A DNA stretch of 42,130 bases from positions 1-42,130 of the IMG/VR virus record IMGVR_UViG_3300021425_000067, one strand, 5' to 3'. Source of the stretch: a virus. Below, in pieces: positions 3,564-37,696 of this stretch. The translations under genes were made by a program, and so were the position numbers. The notes under the pieces were generated by a model, which searched no databases, had not been told where the DNA came from, and was given only the letters and a program-made list of their open reading frames with translations. Each line of letters starts with the position of its first letter. Positions within the stretch are counted from its first letter, which is position 1.

Positions 3564-3794
3564 TTATCTTTCTCGCAGTGATTGTTCTATACTGTCGAGT
3601 TTTAGGAATATTGCTTTGATTGTTTCTTTCATCTCTTTCATCTCACGATCATATGAGACTTTAGATGATTCTAGTTGAGATTTAAGTACGGCTATTTCTG
3701 TCTCGTGTTTATTACATCGGGAAAACAGATGCCATACGACGACTATAACAGGTGCAACAAGCCATTGCATAATTAAGTCTACCATCTCGTACAT
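3564..3794 (-). CDS. Membrane helix plus coiled coil protein (i-spanin-like or holin accessory)
   Basis: This 76-residue protein has one membrane segment at about residues 5-24 (VDLIMQWLVAPVIVVVWHLF) followed by a continuous heptad-rich helix (EIAVLKSQLESSKVSYDREM and on). An N-terminal inner-membrane helix with a periplasmic coiled coil is the i-spanin layout, but the same shape is found in other short phage membrane proteins. It lies 2 bp downstream of the endolysin gene and abuts the next gene, so it is clearly in the lysis cassette. Confidence 0.68.
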   Translation of the reverse strand: MYEMVDLIMQWLVAPVIVVVWHLFSRCNKHETEIAVLKSQLESSKVSYDREMKEMKETIKAIFLKLDSIEQSLRER

Positions 3795-3796
3795 GA

Positions 3797-4243
3797 CTAT
3801 AGAACCTCGAAATGCGGGGCATCAATGAAGGGTCTACGACCAGCAGAGCGACGAACGTCAATGTATTCATTCATCAGGTCTTCTGCAGTTCCATCCCAGT
3901 CGTTTAATGCCTTGTGCCATGCAGCACCCCAGCGTAGTGTCACTCCTAGTTCTTTAGCAGCTTTGAGCATTGCATCTGCAATCTCGTCATACAAGTTTAG
4001 TTCCCAACGGATGCCATCACAGTAGGCTGCAAGGTCTACAGCTTTACCTTCTAGATGCTTAGATTTCATCGTCTGTGATGCACCTTTAGCAACTAGGGCT
4101 TCTTGCTCCTGAACAGTTCGTAGACCACAGATCACAGAGAAGTCCTGCTCAGAGATTTCAATAGCTCTTTCAACAACTGCGACTAGCCGTGGGTCAACGC
4201 CCTGTAGTTTTTCTTTACTTCGATTACCTAAGACATATCCCAT
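3797..4243 (-). CDS. Endolysin, M15-family L-alanyl-D-glutamate/D-Ala-type endopeptidase
   Basis: This 148-residue protein belongs to the VanY/T5-endolysin-like M15 metallopeptidases. Zinc ligands are visible in SKHLEGKAVD (H-x6-D) and in the C-terminal DAPHFEV (H). The catalytic acid is expected just before that final histidine. It cleaves peptide crosslinks of peptidoglycan. It has no signal peptide, so it would need the holin to reach the wall. Single-domain length is normal for this family. It heads the lysis cassette, directly after the lipoprotein gene. Confidence 0.9.
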   Translation of the reverse strand: MGYVLGNRSKEKLQGVDPRLVAVVERAIEISEQDFSVICGLRTVQEQEALVAKGASQTMKSKHLEGKAVDLAAYCDGIRWELNLYDEIADAMLKAAKELGVTLRWGAAWHKALNDWDGTAEDLMNEYIDVRRSAGRRPFIDAPHFEVL

Positions 4244-5201: not shown

Positions 5202-7328
5202 TTACCCCCCTGTCATAGCTATTTCTGTAGTTGAAATTGAGTATCCAAGTTGTTTACCCCCACTAGTCTGCGAAACTGTTGCACCATTTGCATAGTAAGG
5301 ATAACCAGCAGTCAGGCTAGAATGAACATTAGAAACACCACCAGTGATAGCTACATCTACAGATGCATCAGCCGATACAGTCGCTTGAGCAACACCTATA
5401 CAACTTATGTCTGTAGGTATATTCCAAGTATGCACATTTGCATTAGCACCATCCCAAGAGATAATCAGGTTGTCCTCATTGTTCCCCTCTGGATTAACAG
5501 CAACACAGGTATCGTCAGCAAAGCCTGTAGATGGAGCAAAACTATATACTTTTGATTTAACTGGGTTATGGGGAATAGTCATGTCAAATACGGTATACAT
5601 ATCAACACCCCTATTAGTAGCATTTCTTGACTGAGGAACTACTAACTGTTTCATATTTGACGAGTAGAAAAGTTGCTTATCACGGATGGCACCAATACTA
5701 CCAATCTCATTAGTAACTCCCATACTTATACGAGTAACTATTCTTGGAATATAACCATCGCTACTATCATCCGAACCATTCGCAAAACCAACTAGATCAG
5801 TATTCATATAGCTTCCATTAACACCATAGTTGTATTTTAACGCATAGTTGACGCCATCTAGCTCAACAAATTCTGAGTAATATTGGTCACGATAAACTGT
5901 AGATGCACCTGTTCCAAAGTCAAAATCTTCAATTATGTTAAAGCCTTCTAAACTTAAAGTTGTTCCGCTGTAACTAAAGAAAAGGCCTCTTGATTGCATA
6001 CTAGTTGAAGTGCTTTCATTCGTAGCTAACGCAACAAATCTGTCAGACGTACTATCATAAAACGCACCAAAGGTATAAGTATAGCCTATATTAGAACCAG
6101 ACCCAACAGTTAGGGTTGTGCCACTTATCGATACCAAATAACCAAAGTTACCAGCTGTACCAGAGTCCTGAGTTACAACAAATAAAGTATCTTTATCTGA
6201 GTTTAAGGCGAATGCAGTATTATAGGTGTCAGCAGTACTAGTCTCAACTACGCTAGTTGTACCTACGCTAACAGTTGTGCCAGTACCAGTTAGTCGGGCT
6301 ACGACAACTTCTTCCCTATTTCTAAATATTGCAACAAGCCCATCGCCTGTATCAACAATACCGTCTACATAGTTACCGACTGAAGCACCAGTTGTAAAAA
6401 CAAAAGTTTTGGTGCCAGCAGTTACTGTACCACCAGATACTGTAAATGCTTGTGCATAGATGTTGTTAGACGAACCAGTGTCAGACCCTACAAGTACAAA
6501 CCTAGAACCGTTTGTGTCCCATACCACTCTATAATTAGCTGATGTACTAAAACTTATCCCTGCGTTTACTGTACTGTCTGTCGTACTGTGAGCAAAAGTC
6601 TTACCCACTTTACCATCATTACGCATATATACTGGATCACCAGCGGTGAGTGCTTCGTAAGCTGTGGCCCCAAAGGAACCACCACCAGCAGCAGCATCCA
6701 CAAAGCTAACCGTTCCAGAGCCGTTAGTTTGCATAACTTGACCACTTGTGCCGTCAGAAGTTGGCAAAGTAAATGTGTTAGTGAAACCTTGTAGGTTAGC
6801 ATCATAGGCTAATACGTCTGTACCAATCGCAACACCAAGATTAGTACGAGCGGTGGCTGCATTAGCAACATCGGACAGATTATCAGCAGCAATCAACGCA
6901 CCACTTGCATCCAGAGCAGCAGTAATCCAAGCACTGTTGCTATAAATCTTTAATTGATCTGTTGTGGTGTTATAATAGATAGCACCTTCCTGTAAGGGGT
7001 TTCCATCATTATCCAGTGTAGGGTCAGATGCCTTAGACCCAAGCATAATAGCACCAATCTGAGAAACATAGGTTTCTGATGCAGCAGCATTAGTCTCAGA
7101 AGTTGCAGCATTAGTCTCAGAGGTAGCAGCAGCGGCAGCACTAGCAGCAGCGTTAGTCTCAGAAGTGGCTGTAGCAGTTTCTGCCAGTTCTACAGCATCA
7201 CCTAGTGCATCTAGTTCTGTTCCGAATGTATCTAATGCCCCTAGAAAGGCATCAGCTTCTGTGGCAAAGTCGTCTGGTCTGGATCGACTAGGAGGTGTTG
7301 GTAGTGGTGTTACTGGAGGAATAGCCAT
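5202..7328 (-). CDS. Tail fibre / receptor-binding protein
   Basis: This 708-residue protein has a proline-rich start (IPPVTPLPTPPSRSRPDDF), a helical segment, then a low-complexity Ser-Glu-Thr-Asn-Ala repeat (three to four SETNAA units, residues about 58-85) typical of trimeric fibre shafts. A short domain with IYYNTTTDQLKIYSNSAWI (residues about 115-135) is common in phage fibres. The rest is a long Ser/Thr/Gly-rich beta region that may form propeller-like repeats and ends in GYSISTTEIAMTGG. It probably makes the receptor contact. Its chaperone-like partner follows immediately. Confidence 0.82.
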   Translation of the reverse strand: MAIPPVTPLPTPPSRSRPDDFATEADAFLGALDTFGTELDALGDAVELAETATATSETNAAASAAAAATSETNAATSETNAAASETYVSQIGAIMLGSKASDPTLDNDGNPLQEGAIYYNTTTDQLKIYSNSAWITAALDASGALIAADNLSDVANAATARTNLGVAIGTDVLAYDANLQGFTNTFTLPTSDGTSGQVMQTNGSGTVSFVDAAAGGGSFGATAYEALTAGDPVYMRNDGKVGKTFAHSTTDSTVNAGISFSTSANYRVVWDTNGSRFVLVGSDTGSSNNIYAQAFTVSGGTVTAGTKTFVFTTGASVGNYVDGIVDTGDGLVAIFRNREEVVVARLTGTGTTVSVGTTSVVETSTADTYNTAFALNSDKDTLFVVTQDSGTAGNFGYLVSISGTTLTVGSGSNIGYTYTFGAFYDSTSDRFVALATNESTSTSMQSRGLFFSYSGTTLSLEGFNIIEDFDFGTGASTVYRDQYYSEFVELDGVNYALKYNYGVNGSYMNTDLVGFANGSDDSSDGYIPRIVTRISMGVTNEIGSIGAIRDKQLFYSSNMKQLVVPQSRNATNRGVDMYTVFDMTIPHNPVKSKVYSFAPSTGFADDTCVAVNPEGNNEDNLIISWDGANANVHTWNIPTDISCIGVAQATVSADASVDVAITGGVSNVHSSLTAGYPYYANGATVSQTSGGKQLGYSISTTEIAMTGG

Positions 7329-7331
7329 GTC

Positions 7332-8237
7332 TTATACAAGTCCTTCTACATCTATAGTTGCGTAAGAGAGAGATGGGGTTGATAGGTTAATGTCGAAATC
7401 TCTGTAGTATCCATATATGGTTGTACCATACTTATCAGTATTTGGCCCTGCATACCAAACAACAGGGGTTGTACGTATTTCTGATAGGATACTTTGAACA
7501 CGACGAACAGCATTGGTTTCTACTGTAATGTCGTATTCAGCACGTTGAGCAAATGCTCTTTCAACAATAATCGGGTTGCCGAAGGTATCTCTTTCCTTAC
7601 GGCTAAAGTCTTCGATAGATACCGAAGTATTATATTGTGTCGCACCAAGATCAAGGTAACGACCAATAATAATTTGTCCTACTTCTGCAGTAGAGCCAGT
7701 TTCACTAATTGTAATAGTGACAGTTGGTGAGGTGTAAGGTGGTAGGTCTTCAATTAGAAGCTCTTCTAGCTTACGTTGAGGTTCAAAGAAGTATGTATAC
7801 CAATCAATTACATAAGAGTTATCAATAAGATCAAATGTCTGATTGTAGTATTCACCCTCACTTGTGGTTTCCAACTGTAGTTGTAATTCTGAAGCATCTA
7901 GGTTAAAGAAAGCAACAGCAGTTACAAGTTCGTCTGTAGGGTCTAGCACATAACCGATACTGTTAGACTCACTAACTTGGTCTGTAATCTTTTGGTCAAA
8001 AGCCTTCCACCTGTTAGTAGCAGAGACTTCCAACCACCAAGTACCATCATCTGTTGTAGGGTCATTGCCTGTGTTAGACGCTTGTACACTCTCATACACC
8101 TTGTGTGTGCTAGTACTAATAACCCTATCTTCTAGGGCATAAGTGGTTCCAGAGACCCATACAGAGTAATCATCTTCTGGGACTGTGCTTGAAGTAAGAA
8201 TACTATCTGTAATAGTTACAGGTTTAATTATCCGCAT
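7332..8237 (-). CDS. Tail tip protein with N-terminal carbohydrate-binding-like module
   Basis: This 301-residue protein directly follows the tape measure gene (3 bp apart) and precedes the fibre. Residues about 27-70 (VWVSGTTYALEDRVI, VYESVQASNTGNDP, GTWWLEV) have the aromatic pattern of chitin-binding-type (CBM5/12-like) modules: W at 27, Y, V, then WW. The remainder is beta-rich without recognised motifs. From its place it should be the distal-tail or tip protein that joins the tube to the fibre; the sugar-binding module may contact surface glycans first. Confidence 0.72.
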   Translation of the reverse strand: MRIIKPVTITDSILTSSTVPEDDYSVWVSGTTYALEDRVISTSTHKVYESVQASNTGNDPTTDDGTWWLEVSATNRWKAFDQKITDQVSESNSIGYVLDPTDELVTAVAFFNLDASELQLQLETTSEGEYYNQTFDLIDNSYVIDWYTYFFEPQRKLEELLIEDLPPYTSPTVTITISETGSTAEVGQIIIGRYLDLGATQYNTSVSIEDFSRKERDTFGNPIIVERAFAQRAEYDITVETNAVRRVQSILSEIRTTPVVWYAGPNTDKYGTTIYGYYRDFDINLSTPSLSYATIDVEGLV

Positions 8238-24129: not shown

Positions 24130-25488
24130 CTACATTAAGCCCTTTGCGGAGCTATATGCCAACTTTAATTGCGGCTTGGCGTATCCGTTAAGTGAGAGGT
24201 CGGTTAAAGCCCAAACTAATGCATCAAGACGGTCTGGTGAGCCTATCGACCCTAAAGGTTCCCACTGTACCATCTGATCTTCTAAATCGTTTAATCCTCG
24301 TACATGCCTAACTTTACTTTGTTCGTATAGTGCAGATACAGGTTCAGCCCGAGCCATCTTCCCTCTAGAAGCGTGGACGAGCTTTACAGGAACTGTTTCA
24401 TCCTCTGTGTGTAGCGTATGGCGTACCATATCACCACCTTGGTTACGTTCAGCTACAATACGATCAGCCATGTGATCTCTGTATAGCTGTATAGCTTTGG
24501 ATGCCCATTGTTGTGGTGTATAACGACCAGTGTGGTCTTCTAGCACATAGGCTGTTCCATTTACGTCAATTCCTGCTACGACAATGCCTGTCATGTCTGA
24601 TTCTGCATTTGCAGTGACAGCAGGGTCGATGGAAATAACGATACGACTAAGTTGTGGTACTTCGTCCTTCTCAATCTCGCATTTAGCTAAGAGAGTTCTG
24701 TTCCATAAAGCACCCGATGCTTCGTCAAGTATTTCGGCATATAGTTCTTGGCGACCAAGACGTGTACCTTCATAGGTTTTGCGGACTGCATCAAGGAAAG
24801 TGTCAGCAAGGTTAGCAGCATTATCATACGTACTACCTGTACTGATCGTCGTCTTTTCATCGTCTAGGATTGTTCTTATTAGTTTTGTAGTCTTGGGGGT
24901 AGTAGTCACAAACACTTTAGGGTGTTTACCTAGACGTAGACCAAACATCATCATGTCCCAAGTATCTTGGGCATTACGCCAAGCACAAAGCTCATCACAC
25001 CATGCACTGTAAGCCTGTGGGCCACGAAGACGTTCTGGGTCTTCTGCTGAGAAGAATACCGCCTTAGCACCATTCTCCCATGTTAAGCTATTGTTCGTGG
25101 GAGACCAAACAGGATAACCAATGTGTTTACCACGATATGTTTCATCACCACTCCAACATACACTTAGAAGACCAGAGTCACCTTCAACCATAACTCTTCG
25201 GACATCACCTTTGGTAGGTGCGACACAGTGTACAATCTTGTCACCGCTTCTAATCCGATGGCGAACCCACTCTGCACCTGCTCTAGTCTTACCCCAACCA
25301 CGTCCTGCCAAGGCGACCCATATATTCCATGAACCTTCAGGCTCCAGTTGCTCAGGTCTAGCCCAAAATCCCCAGTCATGTCTTAGCTCTTCCGCTTTCT
25401 TTGGGCCTAGCTCTTTCAGAATAGCAGCTACTTCCTCATCAGGAAGGTCTCTTAAGATGTTAGCTGTTATCTTCGCTTGGGGTTGCAT
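24130..25488 (-). CDS. terL: Terminase large subunit
   Basis: This 452-residue packaging motor has an ATPase site GRGWGKTRAGAEW (Walker A, residues about 60-72), SAWCDELCAW (Walker B region) and VFVTTTPKTTK (coupling motif). The nuclease domain begins with ISIDPAVTANAESDMTGIVV (Asp of the RNase H fold) and includes IVAERNQGGDMV and a C-terminal SIGSPDRLDALVWAL with conserved Asp. It overlaps the upstream small-subunit-like gene by 29 bp. The family would suggest headful packaging, in line with a circularly permuted assembly, but this is inference. Confidence 0.95.
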   Translation of the reverse strand: MQPQAKITANILRDLPDEEVAAILKELGPKKAEELRHDWGFWARPEQLEPEGSWNIWVALAGRGWGKTRAGAEWVRHRIRSGDKIVHCVAPTKGDVRRVMVEGDSGLLSVCWSGDETYRGKHIGYPVWSPTNNSLTWENGAKAVFFSAEDPERLRGPQAYSAWCDELCAWRNAQDTWDMMMFGLRLGKHPKVFVTTTPKTTKLIRTILDDEKTTISTGSTYDNAANLADTFLDAVRKTYEGTRLGRQELYAEILDEASGALWNRTLLAKCEIEKDEVPQLSRIVISIDPAVTANAESDMTGIVVAGIDVNGTAYVLEDHTGRYTPQQWASKAIQLYRDHMADRIVAERNQGGDMVRHTLHTEDETVPVKLVHASRGKMARAEPVSALYEQSKVRHVRGLNDLEDQMVQWEPLGSIGSPDRLDALVWALTDLSLNGYAKPQLKLAYSSAKGLM

Positions 25489-25918
25489 CGGGCTTATTCT
25501 TTCCTAGAAGGGTAATTAGGGAGTCAATAGCTGATTCGTCTTCGTCGGGGTTCTCTGACTGTTCAACTTCATTAACAGTAGACGTAGGTGACCAACCACC
25601 TTTAGAACGTAGGAATAGTTCTGCTGCCTTAAAGTCACCGTCAAGGGCTTGTTGTATAACGACAGAACCAACTTGACCTACAATATCAGCTTTAGTGTCA
25701 GCTATGTCTTGTCCATAAAGCTTATAGAAGGTAGCTGTAGAGCTAGGAGCATTCTGGTACTTTTGTATCGACGCAAGTATGTCTTTAACAGACACACCAT
25801 TACGTATGCCCTCTTTAACCTTCTTGGCTATAACTTCACTATATGGGATTGCTTGGATGCTCATATTCTTAACGACAGATAAAATTGCTTTGTAGCTCTC
25901 ATCCATCGGCAAAACCAT
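25460..25918 (-). CDS. Putative terminase small subunit
   Basis: This 152-residue protein is the first gene of the late array. A predicted helical N-terminal half (ESYKAILSVVKNMSIQAIPY, SEVIAKKVKEGIRNGVSVKD) is followed by ADIVGQVGSVVIQQALDGDF and LFLRSKGGWSPTSTVNEVEQ. GGWSPT is a phrase common in small terminases of the type that carry a helix-turn-helix. The C-terminus is acidic. Position directly before terL supports the role; DNA recognition itself is not visible in the sequence. Confidence 0.72.
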   Translation of the reverse strand: MVLPMDESYKAILSVVKNMSIQAIPYSEVIAKKVKEGIRNGVSVKDILASIQKYQNAPSSTATFYKLYGQDIADTKADIVGQVGSVVIQQALDGDFKAAELFLRSKGGWSPTSTVNEVEQSENPDEDESAIDSLITLLGKNKPDATPSEDNS

Positions 25919-25993: not shown

Positions 25994-26014
25994 ACATAAG
26001 TATTAAACTTATGT
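25994..26014. promoter_or_regulatory. Inverted repeat ACATAAGT-N5-ACTTATGT
   Basis: Two perfect 8-bp arms are separated by 5 bp, about 90 bp downstream of the late phage-sigma promoter. The same half-site ACATAAGT recurs three times between the second phage-sigma promoter and its gene (33134-33199). A site for a regulator or a leader RNA structure is likely. Confidence 0.6.
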
Positions 26015-26101: not shown

Positions 26102-26130
26102 TATAAGTGCTTTTTTTGTGTTTTGTAACA
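26102..26130 (-). promoter_or_regulatory. Phage-sigma promoter, late (terminase) operon
   Basis: On the minus strand TGTTAC (26130-26125), a 17-bp spacer that is A-rich and ends in GCA, and CTTATA (26107-26102). The same two hexamers at the same spacing occur at 33089-33117 and 37082-37110. It lies 184 bp before the first late gene. TATAAT also overlaps the downstream element here, so host polymerase could use it weakly. Confidence 0.78.
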
Positions 26131-26322
26131 CACAATTTTAAACTATTTTATAAGCCTTTGTTTTCTAACGAATCTTTTTTGTTGTTTTATAGGTGATTCT
26201 TGGGTGGGTAGCCGATGTTATGAACTTTTGTTACAACTTTGTTGCACTTTGTTATATGCGGCAGTTTGACACACCTGAACTAATTTCTTTAGTTTGTAGA
26301 TGTAGGGGTAAACCTCCACCGC

Positions 26323-28554: not shown

Positions 28555-28603
28555 GAGTACAAAAGGAGAACATTGGGAAAAAACATTTTGTTACGTTACG
28601 TCA

Positions 28604-31883: not shown

Positions 31884-32550
31884 AATCAACGTAGACCTGA
31901 TTGAGCATATGGGTGATGACCTTACGGTTGTACGTGCTGCACGAGTGTCCTACGCTAACACTTCTGACTGGCGTGGTCAGATACATTCAGGGGAATTTCG
32001 TGTCCTCAGTGACAAGGACATACGCTTAATCAGTTTTTTAGCAAAGCATAAGCATACATCACCATTCGGACATGGGTTTGCTACCTTCCGTGTGGATGCA
32101 CCAATCTTTGTTGCCCGACAGTTGGTTAAGCATAAGTTCCTACGGTGGAATGAGATTAGTCGTCGTTACGTGAAGTATGAACCAGAGTTCTATGAACCAT
32201 ACTGGCGTGAGAAACCTGAGAACTCTAAGCAGGGTTCAGGGGGGCCGATGGAAATTAGTCAAGAAGCTGAAATGATGTTTCATGCTACCTTACGTAATGC
32301 ACTTACGACATATGACATGATGATCAAAGAGGGTGTTTCACCTGAACAGGCACGATCCATATTACCCCAGAATATGATGACATCATGGTATTGGTCTGGC
32401 AGTCTGGATGCATGGGCTGACATGTGTAAGCTACGTTGTGCCAAGGATACACAAGCAGAAACACGCATCGTAGCCTCTGTGATTTATGGGGAAATGCTGA
32501 AGCTATACCCTGTCTCTTGGGCTGCATTAATGGAGAGTGATGATGGATAA
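31870..32550 (+). CDS. thyX: Flavin-dependent thymidylate synthase
   Basis: I chose ATG 31870 with AAGGAG ten bases upstream; a longer frame to 31768 has no support. The 226-residue protein has the ThyX core: SPFGHGFATFRVDAPIFVAR, the signature region QLVKHKFLRWNEISRRY at residues 84-100, and ARSILPQNMMTSWYWSGSLD. It methylates dUMP using folate and FAD. The signature RHR-x7-S reads KHK-x7-S here (Lys87-His88-Lys89, Ser97). It leads the nucleotide and replication part of the array and overlaps the sigma factor start. Confidence 0.93.
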   Translation: MKKGEINVDLIEHMGDDLTVVRAARVSYANTSDWRGQIHSGEFRVLSDKDIRLISFLAKHKHTSPFGHGFATFRVDAPIFVARQLVKHKFLRWNEISRRYVKYEPEFYEPYWREKPENSKQGSGGPMEISQEAEMMFHATLRNALTTYDMMIKEGVSPEQARSILPQNMMTSWYWSGSLDAWADMCKLRCAKDTQAETRIVASVIYGEMLKLYPVSWAALMESDDG

Positions 32551-33088
32551 CGATGATATTATGAAAATATGTCGATCCCTAGCGAGGAAATATAACGATC
32601 CACAAGAGTATGACGACCTAGTGTCTGAAGGTGTCGTAAAAGTGCTAGAAATGGTCGCTGAAGGTAAAACCGACAAGAACCTACTGTATTCTCATGCGCA
32701 AGCAGTGATGAATGAGTATTACAATCTGTCTAGATCACCTGTTAAAGTGCCTAAGTCGCATCAAGCAAAGGCAATGAGTGCTGATGATGATGTTGATGGT
32801 TGGACTGCTACTGCCTTACATCAGGCATTGTATGCTGATTCTGTTGAGTATGAAGAGTATATGTCGCAAGCACCATCGACAGAAGACCTGTACGAACAGA
32901 AAGAATGGTTTGCTAGGGTTCAAACTGTGGCTGTCAGTCACCTAACACAAGAAGAGTGGGCAATCATTCGCATGAGATATTGGGATGACCTTACACAAGA
33001 TGATGTAGGTATTCATATGGGTCGTAACAAAATGTGGGTATCACGACACGAAAAAGCAGCACTAGAAAAAATCCGTAACAATTTGTGA
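32543..33088 (+). CDS. RNA polymerase sigma-70 family factor
   Basis: This 181-residue protein starts at ATG 32543, seven bases after GGAG (GTG 32537 and ATG 32540 are alternatives). Residues about 18-60 match sigma region 2: YDDLVSEGVVKVLEMVAEGK, then a helix and LSRSPVKVPKSHQAK, like the region 2.4/3.0 junction. Residues about 130-178 match region 4: LTQEEWAIIRMRYWDDLTQD, DVGIHMGRNKMWVSRHEKAA, with the helix-turn-helix at the end. A promoter motif shared by three operons begins at the base after its stop codon. It probably redirects host RNA polymerase to phage genes. It is not an ECF type in strict length; T4 gp55-like factors are an alternative relative. Confidence 0.8.
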   Translation: MDNDDIMKICRSLARKYNDPQEYDDLVSEGVVKVLEMVAEGKTDKNLLYSHAQAVMNEYYNLSRSPVKVPKSHQAKAMSADDDVDGWTATALHQALYADSVEYEEYMSQAPSTEDLYEQKEWFARVQTVAVSHLTQEEWAIIRMRYWDDLTQDDVGIHMGRNKMWVSRHEKAALEKIRNNL

Positions 33089-33117
33089 TGTTACTAAAAC
33101 AACAAAAAGCACTTATA
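33089..33117 (+). promoter_or_regulatory. Phage-sigma promoter before primase-helicase
   Basis: TGTTAC (33089-33094), 17 bp, CTTATA (33112-33117); the spacer is A-rich and ends in GCA, as in the two other copies. The downstream part CACTTA-TAGG-TAAGTG is also a perfect inverted repeat. The start of the next gene is 83 bp away. Confidence 0.78.
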
Positions 33118-33133
33118 GGTAAGTGTCCCTTAA

Positions 33134-33199: not shown

Positions 33200-34783
33200 A
33201 TGAGTAGAACTGCACATTTGCCATGTCCTTATCATGGTTGTGGATCGTCTGATGCCTTTAGGTGGTGGCCTGAAGATGGGAATGGGTTTTGTCACTCTTG
33301 TCGTGGAAACTACCCGAAGGATAAGAAAGAGTTGTTCAGTTGGGCAAAAGAGAAATACCCCCCGAATGGAAATAAGGAATGGTCAGATATGAACGTAACA
33401 AGTTTTACACCTAAGAAGGTAGAAAGTAAGGATGATGGTCGTTATCAATCCATGCGTGGTATCAATGCTACGACAATGGAAGATTATGGCGTAAAGACAT
33501 TCCCTGACCGTCAAGAGTATGTATACCCCAGCGGTGGAATTAAGGTTCGTCGTTTAGACGAGAAAGCATTCTACACTAAAGAGGGTTTCAAGGGTGATGA
33601 ACTGTTCGGTATGAACCTGTTTACATCTGGGTCGTCTAAAATGGTAACGGTAACAGAGGGCGAACTAGATGCCCTGTCAGTGGCACAAATGCTTAAGAGC
33701 AGCTACACTAACCCTGTTGTGTCTTTACCCTCTGCTACGCCCTCTAAGAAGCTCTGGGAGAACTGTAAGGAATGGTTAGATGGGTTTGAGAAGATCATCC
33801 TATCTGTCGATACAGATGACGCAGGTAATTCTCTTGCTGATCGTATGGCTAAGTTATTCCCTAACAAGGTCTACCGTGTACCACACGACAAATACAAGGA
33901 TGCTAACGAGTTCCTACAGAATGGTGCGCAAGCAGAGTTTAAGAGTGCATGGTGGAATGCTAAGAAGTATACACCAGAAAATATACTAAACACTGCAGAC
34001 CAGTTTCTGTCGTTGTATCACGATACACCAGAGCATATCTATGTAGAGACAGGCATTCAGGCACTGGATGACAAGATACTTGGTTTGATGCAGGGACATT
34101 TCACAGTGTTCAAAGCACCTACAGGGATCGGTAAGACAGAACTAATGCGGTATCTAGAATACAACATGCTACAGAAGGGCATACCGATTGCTGCATGGCA
34201 TCTAGAAGAAACCAAACTAAGGTCACTACTTGGTCTTGTGTCGTATCACCTGAACGATAATCTGACACGCAGGGATTTGATTGATGAAAAGGAACGTAAC
34301 GAGGATGTAATAGAAGCAATCAAAGACATCACTAAGGATGAAAACTTCTATCAGTTTTTTCTAGGTGATGGTGCAAGTGCTGAAGACTTGATTGACCAGA
34401 TTAGGTTCTTTAGTCAGGCATGTGGTTGTAAGTTTATCTTCTTTGAGCCTATCCAAGATGTAATCTCTGGATCATCTGAGGAAAGCAAAGAACAACAGTT
34501 GGCTGACCTGTCAGTACGTCTGTCTAAACTTGCAGCAGAATTAAACGTAGGTATCGTAAGCATTGGTCACACTAACGAGAACGGTGATTTCAAATATTGT
34601 AAGATGATTGGTCAACGTGCATCAGTTATCATCGACTTGTACCGTGACAAAGAAGCTGAAGACCTACAGGAACGCAACACAACGTATCTCAAGATTGAGA
34701 AGAACCGTCCATCCTCTGAGGAAGGTGCAGCAGGTAAGATGCGGTTCAACTACGATACGTTTACACTACGAGAGGTGATCTAA
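33200..34783 (+). CDS. T7 gp4-like DNA primase-helicase
   Basis: This 527-residue protein has an N-terminal zinc finger (CPYHGCGSS, then CHSCRG, residues about 9-36) and a TOPRIM primase core with VTEGELDALSV and LSVDTDDAGN (residues about 150-205). The DnaB-like helicase has Walker A APTGIGKTE (about 310), a Walker B region at KFIFFEPIQD (about 415), GIVSIGHTNE and QRASVIIDLYRD. Length and order match T7-type bifunctional proteins. It would unwind DNA and make primers for the polymerase two genes downstream. It has its own phage-sigma promoter. The next gene overlaps its stop by one base. Confidence 0.94.
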   Translation: MSRTAHLPCPYHGCGSSDAFRWWPEDGNGFCHSCRGNYPKDKKELFSWAKEKYPPNGNKEWSDMNVTSFTPKKVESKDDGRYQSMRGINATTMEDYGVKTFPDRQEYVYPSGGIKVRRLDEKAFYTKEGFKGDELFGMNLFTSGSSKMVTVTEGELDALSVAQMLKSSYTNPVVSLPSATPSKKLWENCKEWLDGFEKIILSVDTDDAGNSLADRMAKLFPNKVYRVPHDKYKDANEFLQNGAQAEFKSAWWNAKKYTPENILNTADQFLSLYHDTPEHIYVETGIQALDDKILGLMQGHFTVFKAPTGIGKTELMRYLEYNMLQKGIPIAAWHLEETKLRSLLGLVSYHLNDNLTRRDLIDEKERNEDVIEAIKDITKDENFYQFFLGDGASAEDLIDQIRFFSQACGCKFIFFEPIQDVISGSSEESKEQQLADLSVRLSKLAAELNVGIVSIGHTNENGDFKYCKMIGQRASVIIDLYRDKEAEDLQERNTTYLKIEKNRPSSEEGAAGKMRFNYDTFTLREVI

Positions 34784-35211
34784 TGTCTGATATTTTCTGG
34801 ACTAAACTTAAAACTGATGAGGCTACTGTGTGGCTTAATAAAGAAAAATGCAAGGAGTATACTAAAGAAACTTATCCGATAGTCTTAGAAAGTGGCGACC
34901 TCATGGTAGTAAATGAGGATAAACAATACGCATACATAGATAATTTTATACAAGATTCTATACAATTCTTAGTGGATCATGGTGAAATCAACCCTGTTCT
35001 TAGGACTTTGTCGGAATCCTTAATAAACGATTTCGCAGCTACCGTTGAAGAATACGGATTTTATGCAGAAGAAGCACCAGATGAATGGACTGGAAAAGAG
35101 TTAGCAGATGAGATACTAGACAGCTTAGAAGGTTTATCTAGAAAACTAGGTACAACATTAGAAGAAATTAGAGAAAAACGAGAATATGATTTCTATTGGG
35201 ATAAGTGTTAG
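34783..35211 (+). CDS. 142-residue acidic hypothetical protein between helicase and polymerase
   Basis: The product (IFWTKLKTDEATVWLNKEKC, VNEDKQYAYIDNFIQDSIQF) is acidic and mostly helical in its second half (LADEILDSLEGLSRKLGTTL). No family is recognised. It shares one base with the primase-helicase stop and its last bases supply the ribosome site for the polymerase. It might be a replisome accessory; this is only from position. Confidence 0.7.
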   Translation: MSDIFWTKLKTDEATVWLNKEKCKEYTKETYPIVLESGDLMVVNEDKQYAYIDNFIQDSIQFLVDHGEINPVLRTLSESLINDFAATVEEYGFYAEEAPDEWTGKELADEILDSLEGLSRKLGTTLEEIREKREYDFYWDKC

Positions 35212-35219
35212 GAGAACAA

Positions 35220-37061
35220 ATGCCAGTATTCGATATTGAAACAGACGGTCTACTAGACGAACTAACAAAGATTCATGTGTTATCTTGGATGGGGGACGAT
35301 GGAAATGTGCATTATACACATGACTATGATGCTATGCGTATATTTTTTACAGAAGCACCTACACTGATTGGTCACAACATCATTCGCTTTGACATCCCTG
35401 CAGTGGAAAAAGTGTTAGGCATTGAAGTAAAGTCTCGTCTGATCGACACTCTACCTTTGTCGTGGTATCTAAACCATGATCGTATGAGACATGGGCTTGA
35501 GGGCTACGGAGAGGACTATGGTGTACCTAAACCAGTGATCAAGGACTGGAACACGCTAACACCAGAGGAATATGCTCACCGCTGTAATGAGGATGTTAAG
35601 ATCAACACAAGGTTACACCGTGACTTGGACTTGAAGCTGAACAAACTGTATCAGGACAGTGGAGAGAAAGATCGCTTTATTGACTATCTCATGTTCAAGA
35701 TGGACTGTGCAAGAGAGCAGGAGACCCTACGATGGAAATTAGATGTGGAGAAAGCAAAAGCCCATCTACAGGAATGGGAAGACCTAAAGCATGAAAAGAC
35801 AGAAGCCTTGGCTGATGCTATGCCAAAACGTAATCTATTTACTACCAAGACAAAACCGAAAGTCATGTACAAAAAAGACGGTACACTTTCTAGTCACGGC
35901 GAAAAATGGGTTCAGTTATGTAAGCAAGAACACCAACCGATTTCTACACTGTCTATGGTGGTCAAAACAGGAGAAGAACGAGCAAATCCTAATAGTGTGG
36001 AGCAGGTCAAAGATTGGCTTTTCTCTTTGGGGTGGAAACCTCGTACCTTCAAATACCTAAAGGATAAGGTAACTGGTGATGAACGGAAATTGGAACAAGT
36101 ACGGAAAGACGGAGAACTCTGTCCCTCAGTACGTGAACTGGTTGAACAGGAACCTGCTATTAGTTTGCTTGATGGCTTGTCTGTTCTTTCACATCGTATT
36201 GGTGTCCTTAGATCAATGGTTGAAACAGAGAACGATGGATACGTGCAAGCAACTGTTGCAGGGTTCACTAACACCCTACGCTTTCGTCATGCCCGACCAC
36301 TGGTCAACTTGCCATCGGTTGATAAACCCTACGGAAAAGAAATCAGAGGGTGTCTAACTGCACCTGAAGGTTACACTTTGTGTGGTGCTGATATGACATC
36401 GTTAGAGGATACGACAAAGAGACACTACATGAAACCACTTGATCCTGATTATGTCGCTGAAATGTCTAAGGATGGGTTTGACCCGCACCTTGACCTTGCT
36501 AAACACGCAGGTGTCGTCACACAAGATGACATCGACAAGCATAATTCAGGGGAACGTAGCCTTAAGGCACTACGTAAGAACTACAAGGTGGTGAACTACA
36601 GTGCTACGTATGGTGTAGGAGCCGCTAAACTGGCTCGTGAGACAGGTATGAGTAAGTCTGAGGCACAGACACTGCTAGATGCTTTTTGGTCACGTAACTG
36701 GTCAGTACAGAAGGTGGCAGAAGGTCTACGTGTTCGTGAACTCTTTGGCTCCGCTTGGGTACAGAACCCTGTATCTAAATTCTGGTATAGTCTGCGGTCT
36801 GACAAGGATCGTTTCAGTACACTAAATCAGGGTACAGGTGTATTCTGTTTCGACAGTTGGGTTAAGGGGTGTCGTGGTATGGGACTAAAGACTATCGGTC
36901 AGTTCCACGACGAAATTATAACTTTAGTGGAAGAGGGGGATGAGGACAAAGAAGAAAATATTATGACTATGGCAATCGACCAAGTAAACCAAGAAATTCA
37001 ACTAAATGTACCACTTGGGATAGATGCACAGTTCGGACGGACATATGCAGACATCCATTAG
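35220..37061 (+). CDS. polA: Family A DNA polymerase (T7-like)
   Basis: I chose ATG 35220, with AGGAG upstream; a frame to 35205 exists. The 613-residue protein has a 3'-5' exonuclease domain (FDIETDGL; IGHNIIRFDIPAVEK; CNEDV) and polymerase motifs A (CGADMTSLEDTTKRH), B (RKNYKVVNYSATYG) and C (GQFHDEIITL). The residue matching E. coli Phe762 is Tyr, a state reported for many virulent phages. Residues about 195-300 are a T7-like insertion region, diverged. It would work with the helicase upstream and SSB downstream; no obvious dedicated thioredoxin partner is seen apart from host thioredoxin. Confidence 0.95.
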   Translation: MPVFDIETDGLLDELTKIHVLSWMGDDGNVHYTHDYDAMRIFFTEAPTLIGHNIIRFDIPAVEKVLGIEVKSRLIDTLPLSWYLNHDRMRHGLEGYGEDYGVPKPVIKDWNTLTPEEYAHRCNEDVKINTRLHRDLDLKLNKLYQDSGEKDRFIDYLMFKMDCAREQETLRWKLDVEKAKAHLQEWEDLKHEKTEALADAMPKRNLFTTKTKPKVMYKKDGTLSSHGEKWVQLCKQEHQPISTLSMVVKTGEERANPNSVEQVKDWLFSLGWKPRTFKYLKDKVTGDERKLEQVRKDGELCPSVRELVEQEPAISLLDGLSVLSHRIGVLRSMVETENDGYVQATVAGFTNTLRFRHARPLVNLPSVDKPYGKEIRGCLTAPEGYTLCGADMTSLEDTTKRHYMKPLDPDYVAEMSKDGFDPHLDLAKHAGVVTQDDIDKHNSGERSLKALRKNYKVVNYSATYGVGAAKLARETGMSKSEAQTLLDAFWSRNWSVQKVAEGLRVRELFGSAWVQNPVSKFWYSLRSDKDRFSTLNQGTGVFCFDSWVKGCRGMGLKTIGQFHDEIITLVEEGDEDKEENIMTMAIDQVNQEIQLNVPLGIDAQFGRTYADIH

Positions 37062-37081: not shown

Positions 37082-37110
37082 TGTTACAAACTGCGAAAAA
37101 AGCACTTATA
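37082..37110 (+). promoter_or_regulatory. Phage-sigma promoter before the SSB gene
   Basis: TGTTAC (37082-37087), 17 bp ending in GCA, CTTATA (37105-37110), the same arrangement as at 33089-33117 and on the minus strand at 26130-26102. TATAAT overlaps the downstream side (37111-37116). The gene starts 35 bp later with AAAGGA before its ATG. Confidence 0.78.
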
Positions 37111-37144: not shown

Positions 37145-37696
37145 ATGGCACGATATGAAATGGAAATGGTCTTACAATATGCTAAAGTATTCCCAGAGAA
37201 TGCAGACATGGGCGACCCGAATGGGAATACGATTGCAAAGCAGATTGCAGACAAAGGTGGTCAGTATGTGATGAACGCATACTTCACTAATGAGGCAGAC
37301 ATCGACAAGTTGTTGTCAGATGGTTTGAACCCAAGTCCAATGGGAAGCCAACGTATTGCAGATGGTGAAGCTGAATTTGGCATCGGTAAATACATGAAGA
37401 TGAAACGGTCAGTTGCTGACAACATCAAGACCTTCACTGACAACAAAGGTAAGCCTGTTGAGGTAAATTATGGTGGGCCTATTGCTGTCGTTGACCTTAC
37501 ACAAGGTGAAGATAACAAACGGTGGTGGAGTTTTGAGGATGATGGGCCGTTAGGTAATGGCACAAAAGCTAAAGTCATCTTTGATGTTTACTCTAATGGT
37601 TCAGGTGTTCGCATGAACGCTATCGGTGTTACAGATCATGTAGCCTATGAACCTGCAGAAACTAGCAGCATCGGTGCTTGGACAGAGGTAGCTTAA
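37145..37696 (+). CDS. ssb: Single-stranded DNA-binding protein (T7 gp2.5-like)
   Basis: This 183-residue protein begins MARYEMEMVLQYAKVFPENA and has IAVVDLTQGEDNKRWWSFED followed by an OB-like strand set to the end. Size, aromatic residues and its place between polymerase and exonuclease match gp2.5-type SSBs of T7-like modules. It lacks the long acidic tail of T7 gp2.5. It has its own promoter, so higher expression than the polymerase is expected. Its stop overlaps the next ATG as TAATG. Confidence 0.8.
   Translation: MARYEMEMVLQYAKVFPENADMGDPNGNTIAKQIADKGGQYVMNAYFTNEADIDKLLSDGLNPSPMGSQRIADGEAEFGIGKYMKMKRSVADNIKTFTDNKGKPVEVNYGGPIAVVDLTQGEDNKRWWSFEDDGPLGNGTKAKVIFDVYSNGSGVRMNAIGVTDHVAYEPAETSSIGAWTEVA

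Follow-up and report, generated by a model that had tools for sequence, protein, structure and literature searches.

A compact sigma factor of 181 residues, encoded by the phage studied here, which belongs to a marine family closely related to a Roseobacter-group phage, very likely steers the host core RNA polymerase to three phage promoters, which it would read segment by segment, and its counterparts in related phages appear to have been re-coded for other promoter sequences. These statements are drawn from sequence comparison: the window, by which we mean the whole stretch of DNA analyzed (one virus record of 42,130 bases), was set against ~70 related loci and the cultured Roseobacter phage CRP-6. 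The reading code is visible in these sequences because the reading segments of the sigma factor and the sites change together between close relatives.

The sigma factor and the three sites of the window

Among 50,697 deposited phage records, CRP-6 (MK613348) was the sole relative of the window at the DNA level, with related terminase and portal genes and a similar general gene order. The packaging and structural genes of the window form a leftward block (25918 down to 2352) and the replication genes a rightward block (from 33200 on), on either side of a stretch of mostly small open reading frames (ORFs), at whose end lie a thymidylate synthase gene and the sigma gene. The leftward block contains the large terminase subunit (24130..25488, minus strand; phrog_979, E = 2.3e-37), preceded by the first gene behind the leftward site (25460..25918, minus strand), which had no match in the family search and is called a probable small terminase from its position beside the large subunit only. 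The operon behind the second site starts with a DNA primase-helicase (33200..34783, plus strand; phrog_239, E = 1.5e-103) and includes the DNA polymerase (35205..37061, plus strand; phrog_17, E = 5.2e-110). The gene that comes first after the third site (37145..37696, plus strand) was named "SSB" in a first-pass annotation of this DNA; this name is unconfirmed, since the gene had no Pfam or PHROG match and its predicted structure was unusable (pLDDT 41). Neither Rfam families nor tRNAs were found within the window.

The sigma gene (32543..33088, plus strand, stop codon at 33086-33088) encodes a protein of the sigma-70 family. TIGR02937 (sigma70-ECF; 63.3 bits, cut-off 42.9) matched it over its whole length (residues 8-181), and it was also matched by Pfam Sigma70_r4, the region 4 model (48.5 bits, cut-off 24.1), and by the sigma factors of PHROG. 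Sigma70_r2 (18.6 bits, cut-off 24) and the ECF-type region 4, Sigma70_r4_2 (14.8 bits, cut-off 25.7), remained under their cut-offs; the size of the protein suits ECF group 4. The AlphaFold model was of moderate quality (pLDDT 72.6, with residues 67-88 below 50), and its best Foldseek matches were sigma factors (best E = 1.2e-3). Two segments are predicted to read the promoter. Codons 45-78 (32675..32776, plus strand), corresponding to regions 2.3/2.4 and an equivalent of region 3.0, would read the -10 element, as judged from alignments and partial Mantel tests, and are hypervariable among near-identical phages. The region 4.2 recognition helix RNKMWVSR (codons 161-168, 33023..33046, plus strand) would read the -35 element, given that it accompanies TGTTAC in each of three families. 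When the profile alignments are extended without gaps, residues 163-167 presumably correspond to R584-R588 of Escherichia coli sigma-70, known for -35 contacts, and residues 57 and 72-75 to T440 and H455-E458, known for -10 and extended -10 contacts. A scan with the sigma alignment over 84,980 genomes of bacteria and archaea found no relative; at this sensitivity, the family thus looks virus-borne.

Three sites of the form TGTTAC-N17-CTTATA, already located correctly in the first pass, were recovered with 0 mismatches and a spacing of 17 bp at each. All are predicted sigma-dependent promoters: one for the leftward terminase/structural (late) operon (26102..26130, minus strand), with class-switching homologs in relatives; one for the primase-helicase/DNA polymerase operon (33089..33117, plus strand), with class-switching homologs in ~70 loci; and one upstream of the gene at 37145 and those that follow (37082..37110, plus strand). 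The second begins immediately after the stop codon of the sigma gene, which ends at 33088. The GCA and A-rich spacer described as common to the sites were also found, giving the fuller shared form TGTTAC-N14-GCACTTATA with an A-run before the GCA. The hexamer CTTATA is present but too short a description, since the element that tracks the protein is TAT with the five bases before it, here GCACT-TAT. From base composition, one expects 0.011 exact matches to the 12-base form per window and ~0.0005 to the 14-base form TGTTAC-N14-GCACTTAT, and 60 shuffles gave no match to either form. A fourth exact 12-base match, not listed in the first pass, lies at 7308-7336 (plus strand), mostly within the opposite-strand gene 5202-7328 and including its start, and lacks the A-run; being coding and without the GCA, it was set aside and is probably a chance match. 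Elsewhere in the window nothing came closer than two mismatches to the 14-base form (spacing of 16-18), and the three matches at that level all lay in coding sequence. A scan of viral contigs for the motif of the window, in which satellites were sought, returned only the three known contexts.

Covariation of promoter classes with the reading segments

Scans of viral contigs revealed sigma relatives with 57-99% identity (family A), and more distant ones (families B to H) were recovered via the terminase and other queries. Nearly all carry a promoter-like site after the sigma gene, whose sequence differs while its spacing is kept, and the ~70 related loci and CRP-6 repeat the layout of the window, with sites behind the sigma gene, ahead of the following replication operon, and ahead of the terminase. 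We found at least 12 types of extended -10 element: GCACT-TAT (the window), GTACT, GTACA, GTATT, GTCGT, and GCTGT-TAT in family A; ATCCC or GTCCC in family B; GTCAC or GTTCC in family F; GTTGC in families D and H; and GTGCC in family G. The -35 elements comprised at least 6 recurrent types, namely TGTTAC, TGTATA, TGTCTA, TGCATA, GTTGAC, and GTTGC(A/G/T), with a few others. Absence of the motif from close relatives in which the sigma gene is retained had been proposed as evidence against a phage regulon. The exact motif is indeed absent from several such relatives, but the same positions hold a motif matched to their own sigma factor, and taken alone this test would have misled. Different classes coexist, since contigs of a single metagenome (3300005512) carried three -10 classes (L015, L020, and L024/L025). 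In the contigs L019-L025, the sigma ORF extends ~16 codons through its own downstream promoter, which is thus also coding sequence.

The sites follow the sequence of the two reading segments. In six pairs of near-identical family A sigma factors that differ in class, pN was 0.21-0.37 in codons 45-82 and 0.00-0.11 elsewhere, whereas the window and L010, both of class GCACT, showed a pN of 0.11 in these codons. On the -10 side, residues 70-73 were PKS(H/N) where the element was GCACT and PV(Q/G)G where it was one of the GT.. types, and the replacement of YSHAQ by HKSAAV accompanied that of ACT-TAT by ACA-TAT. On the -35 side, families A, B, and F all paired TGTTAC with the helix NKMWVSR; TGTATA was accompanied by NQVWV(L/Y)R in families A and F, and GTTGC by (S/T)RQ(A/G)(V/I)(T/E)K in families A and D. 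The helices STQRQVSR, ENQRLISR, and KHQKWVSR went with TGTCTA in families B and F, NQSTVSR with TGCATA, and TKQAID with GTTGAC. Helices compared between families were 0.82 identical when they shared the -35 element and 0.26 when they did not (within-family permutation, P = 5e-5). Mutual information with the -35 element was highest for residues 167, 164, 161, 165, and 163, with 172 also among the top residues, and that with the -10 element for residues 73 and 74. When the other segments were controlled for, partial Mantel tests associated the -10 core with residues 45-78 (r = 0.61) and the -35 element with residues 158-172 (r = 0.71), while other segments reached at most r = 0.21, with little cross-signal; the Mantel and permutation P values are approximate, as related sequences are taken as exchangeable within limits. 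The nearest helix of another family predicted the -35 element correctly in 17 of 21 cases, and the prediction was not decisive for CRP-6. Subfamily B contains every one of the eight possible pairings of its four -35 types with its two -10 types, and in each of them the helix (four kinds) and the region-3.0 segment (two kinds) match the site. Since the sites track both the region 4.2 helix and regions 2.3-3.0, and the eight combinations are matched, the sigma factor is very probably the reader of the sites. The earlier proposal that it reads the TGTTAC-N17-CTTATA class is thus supported by covariation at the level of bases and residues in related phages.

The sites of one genome also usually change together. 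Both the site before the homolog of the gene at 37145 and the terminase site belong to the class of the post-sigma site, in flanks that are nearly unchanged. Of the 14 distinct sigma proteins in family A, 13 had post-sigma and distal sites of one class (P = 1e-5), or 6 of 7 cases when each pair of classes was counted once (P = 7e-4). All three sites read TGTATA...GTACATATA in contig L017/L058 and GTTGAC...GACGTCATA in CRP-6 (at 4113, 8052, and 42191). Several predicted promoters with one consensus, placed before replication and late operons as sought for a phage sigma regulon, were found in the window, in L017, and in CRP-6. Over 74 loci (656 kb), we counted 36 further sites of the locus's own class, where a foreign class averaged 0.34. 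The exceptions were four contigs with one distal site of another class: L007, with GTCGT after the sigma gene and GTACA distally, and L166, L234, and L169, with mismatched -35 classes, which in L169 concern one of its two distal sites. These come from metagenome assemblies of coexisting relatives and may be either chimeras or true intermediates. Two additional "weaker relatives" of the motif had been listed in the window. The one at 26229-26257 is unchanged in L058 and L064, whose real sites switched class, and hence is not part of the regulon; the one at 28589 was not supported.

Other elements accompany these sites. A 12/12 consensus sigma-70 promoter, TTGACA-N17-TATAAT, lies at 26366-26338 (minus strand) and begins 236 bp upstream of the late site on the same strand. 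Eighteen related loci, some of them from the same contig, have it at an equal distance, often with GGGACCC or GGGGCCCC in its spacer, and CRP-6 nearly has it as well. It could possibly produce an early noncoding RNA or a leader open to repression. Downstream of the terminase and primase sites, the leaders contain the repeats ACATAAGT, ACTTATGT, and ACTTAAGT (at 25994, 26007, 26076, 33134, 33179, and 33192 in the window), one of which abuts the start codon of the primase; they are possibly a second regulatory or RNA element. In family A and much of family B, the leader run AAGTGTCCC (33120-33128), just 3' of the post-sigma site, persists while the neighboring promoter changes.

Proposed mechanism, alternatives, and reasons for the variation

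We propose that the 181-residue sigma factor associates with the core RNA polymerase of the host and guides it to the promoters after its own gene, before the gene at 37145, and, on the other strand, before the terminase/structural operon. The helix NKMWVSR of region 4.2 would read the -35 element TGTTAC, and regions 2.3/2.4 with the equivalent of region 3.0 would read the extended -10 element, here GCACT-TAT; in relatives, each segment has switched sequence together with the element matched to it, and the two segments have done so independently of each other. The presumed order is that the host sigma factor transcribes the early genes, including that of the phage sigma factor, which would then open the replication operon that directly follows its gene, the operon after that, and, on the opposite strand, the late operon. 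The gene layout is consistent with the earlier suggestion that replication and late genes are switched on together.

The sites might instead be host sigma-70 promoters resembling each other through a shared housekeeping consensus. The bipartite layout and the 17-bp spacing are identical to those of such promoters, and a true 12/12 sigma-70 promoter lies nearby (26366-26338), but at the same positions relatives have -10 elements such as CCCTAT, TGCTAT, and GTCATA and -35 elements such as TGTATA and TGCATA, which are poor sigma-70 matches. As a shared consensus also leaves unexplained why the letters track the reading helices of the phage protein, we consider this explanation very improbable. 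Operators of a coevolving phage repressor or activator, with the sigma gene as a bystander, would equally be expected to change coherently at several sites as immunity groups diverge. Yet the covariation splits into two segments of the sigma factor, each matching the element it reads in known sigma factors, and all eight segment combinations occur with matching sites; such a split is not expected from a separate repressor, which makes this alternative highly unlikely. Finally, under mere linkage, the post-sigma site would be carried along by the sigma gene, and the agreement of the other sites would stem from ancestry shared by the whole genome. Exchange of blocks does seem to occur, as synonymous divergence is raised across codons 45-130 in some pairs, pointing to a block exchanged by recombination. 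However, the other two sites, ~4 kb and ~7 kb away, switch 2-4 bases within constant flanks (for example, AAACTGCGAAAAAAG-CACT or -CTGT-TATATATA), the pairing of helix and -35 element recurs in families ~28-37% identical to the sigma factor of the window, and the partial Mantel tests control for the rest of the protein, leaving linkage with hardly any likelihood. Recognition by the phage sigma factor is by far the most probable reading.

Why the specificity varies is a matter of more tentative proposals. Recombination might swap the -10 and -35 modules, with the sites following, if selection favors promoter specificities unlike those of co-occurring relatives, so that phages in a common host neither transcribe from each other's promoters nor can be parasitized through them. 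We regard such selection as possible but rather doubtful, and avoidance of cross-talk as an attractive yet speculative cause of the variation; a scan for other elements borrowing the promoter class of the window found none. If true, a sigma factor would here form the basis of a system for exclusion or incompatibility, with a counterpart in the immunity groups of temperate phages. The relatives form a natural series, from near-identical to distant, in which a sigma factor and its promoters were repeatedly re-specified, and because the two halves vary independently, the recognition code between sigma factor and promoter can be read from sequence. This series lets one ask how a regulon of several sites changes specificity without a dead intermediate, and the four mixed contigs may be such intermediates. 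It also allows promoters to be predicted in unannotated marine phages and provides a collection of small sigma factors paired with promoters, the pairs being apparently distinct.

Comparison with known systems

The best sequence and fold matches of the sigma factor of the window are the group 3 factors SigB/SigF, FliA, and ECF sigma factors, to which its identity is low; it is shorter than SigB/SigF and FliA (181 residues) and has no recognized region 3. In CRP-6, the genome layout is the same, the three sites lie at the same places, and the homologous sigma factor is CRP6_gp14, whereas the sites read GTTGAC...GACGTCATA in place of TGTTAC-N14-GCACTTATA. The protein gp14 is annotated as hypothetical, and the CRP-6 paper mentioned neither a sigma factor nor a promoter (PMC6918029). 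We identify gp14 (3586-4101 in the CRP-6 locus L028) as a sigma factor by similarity, its TIGR02937 score (40.3 bits) being just under the cut-off of 42.9; its three promoter-like sites (4113, 8052, and 42191) carry no annotation.

Phage sigma regulons are already known. The sigma factors of phages 7-11 (SaPh711_gp47) and phiEco32 (gp36) were shown experimentally to join the host core and read a few middle and late promoters, which are bipartite in 7-11 (GTAAtg-16-aCTA); the two proteins are only ~15% alike and differ in specificity at similar genome positions, and the authors concluded that they were acquired separately (PMC8948821, PMC4331800). The phage studied here resembles them in having a sigma factor that would act on a few promoters, in its case a regulon deduced from sequence. 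It differs in that specificity changes between sigma factors that are 57-99% identical, in that the -35 and -10 parts vary independently, and in that the code is readable by residue. We found no earlier description of such sigma-promoter covariation in phages in the open-access literature, and a naturally modular, decodable sigma-promoter code that shifts between close relatives appears new with respect to those papers. There is an engineered parallel: Rhodius et al. (2013) swapped the -10 and -35 domains of ECF sigma factors and obtained chimeras with new, mutually distinct promoter pairs (PMC3817407). Those chimeras were built in the laboratory from bacterial sigma factors, whereas here natural phages hold the full set of combinations.
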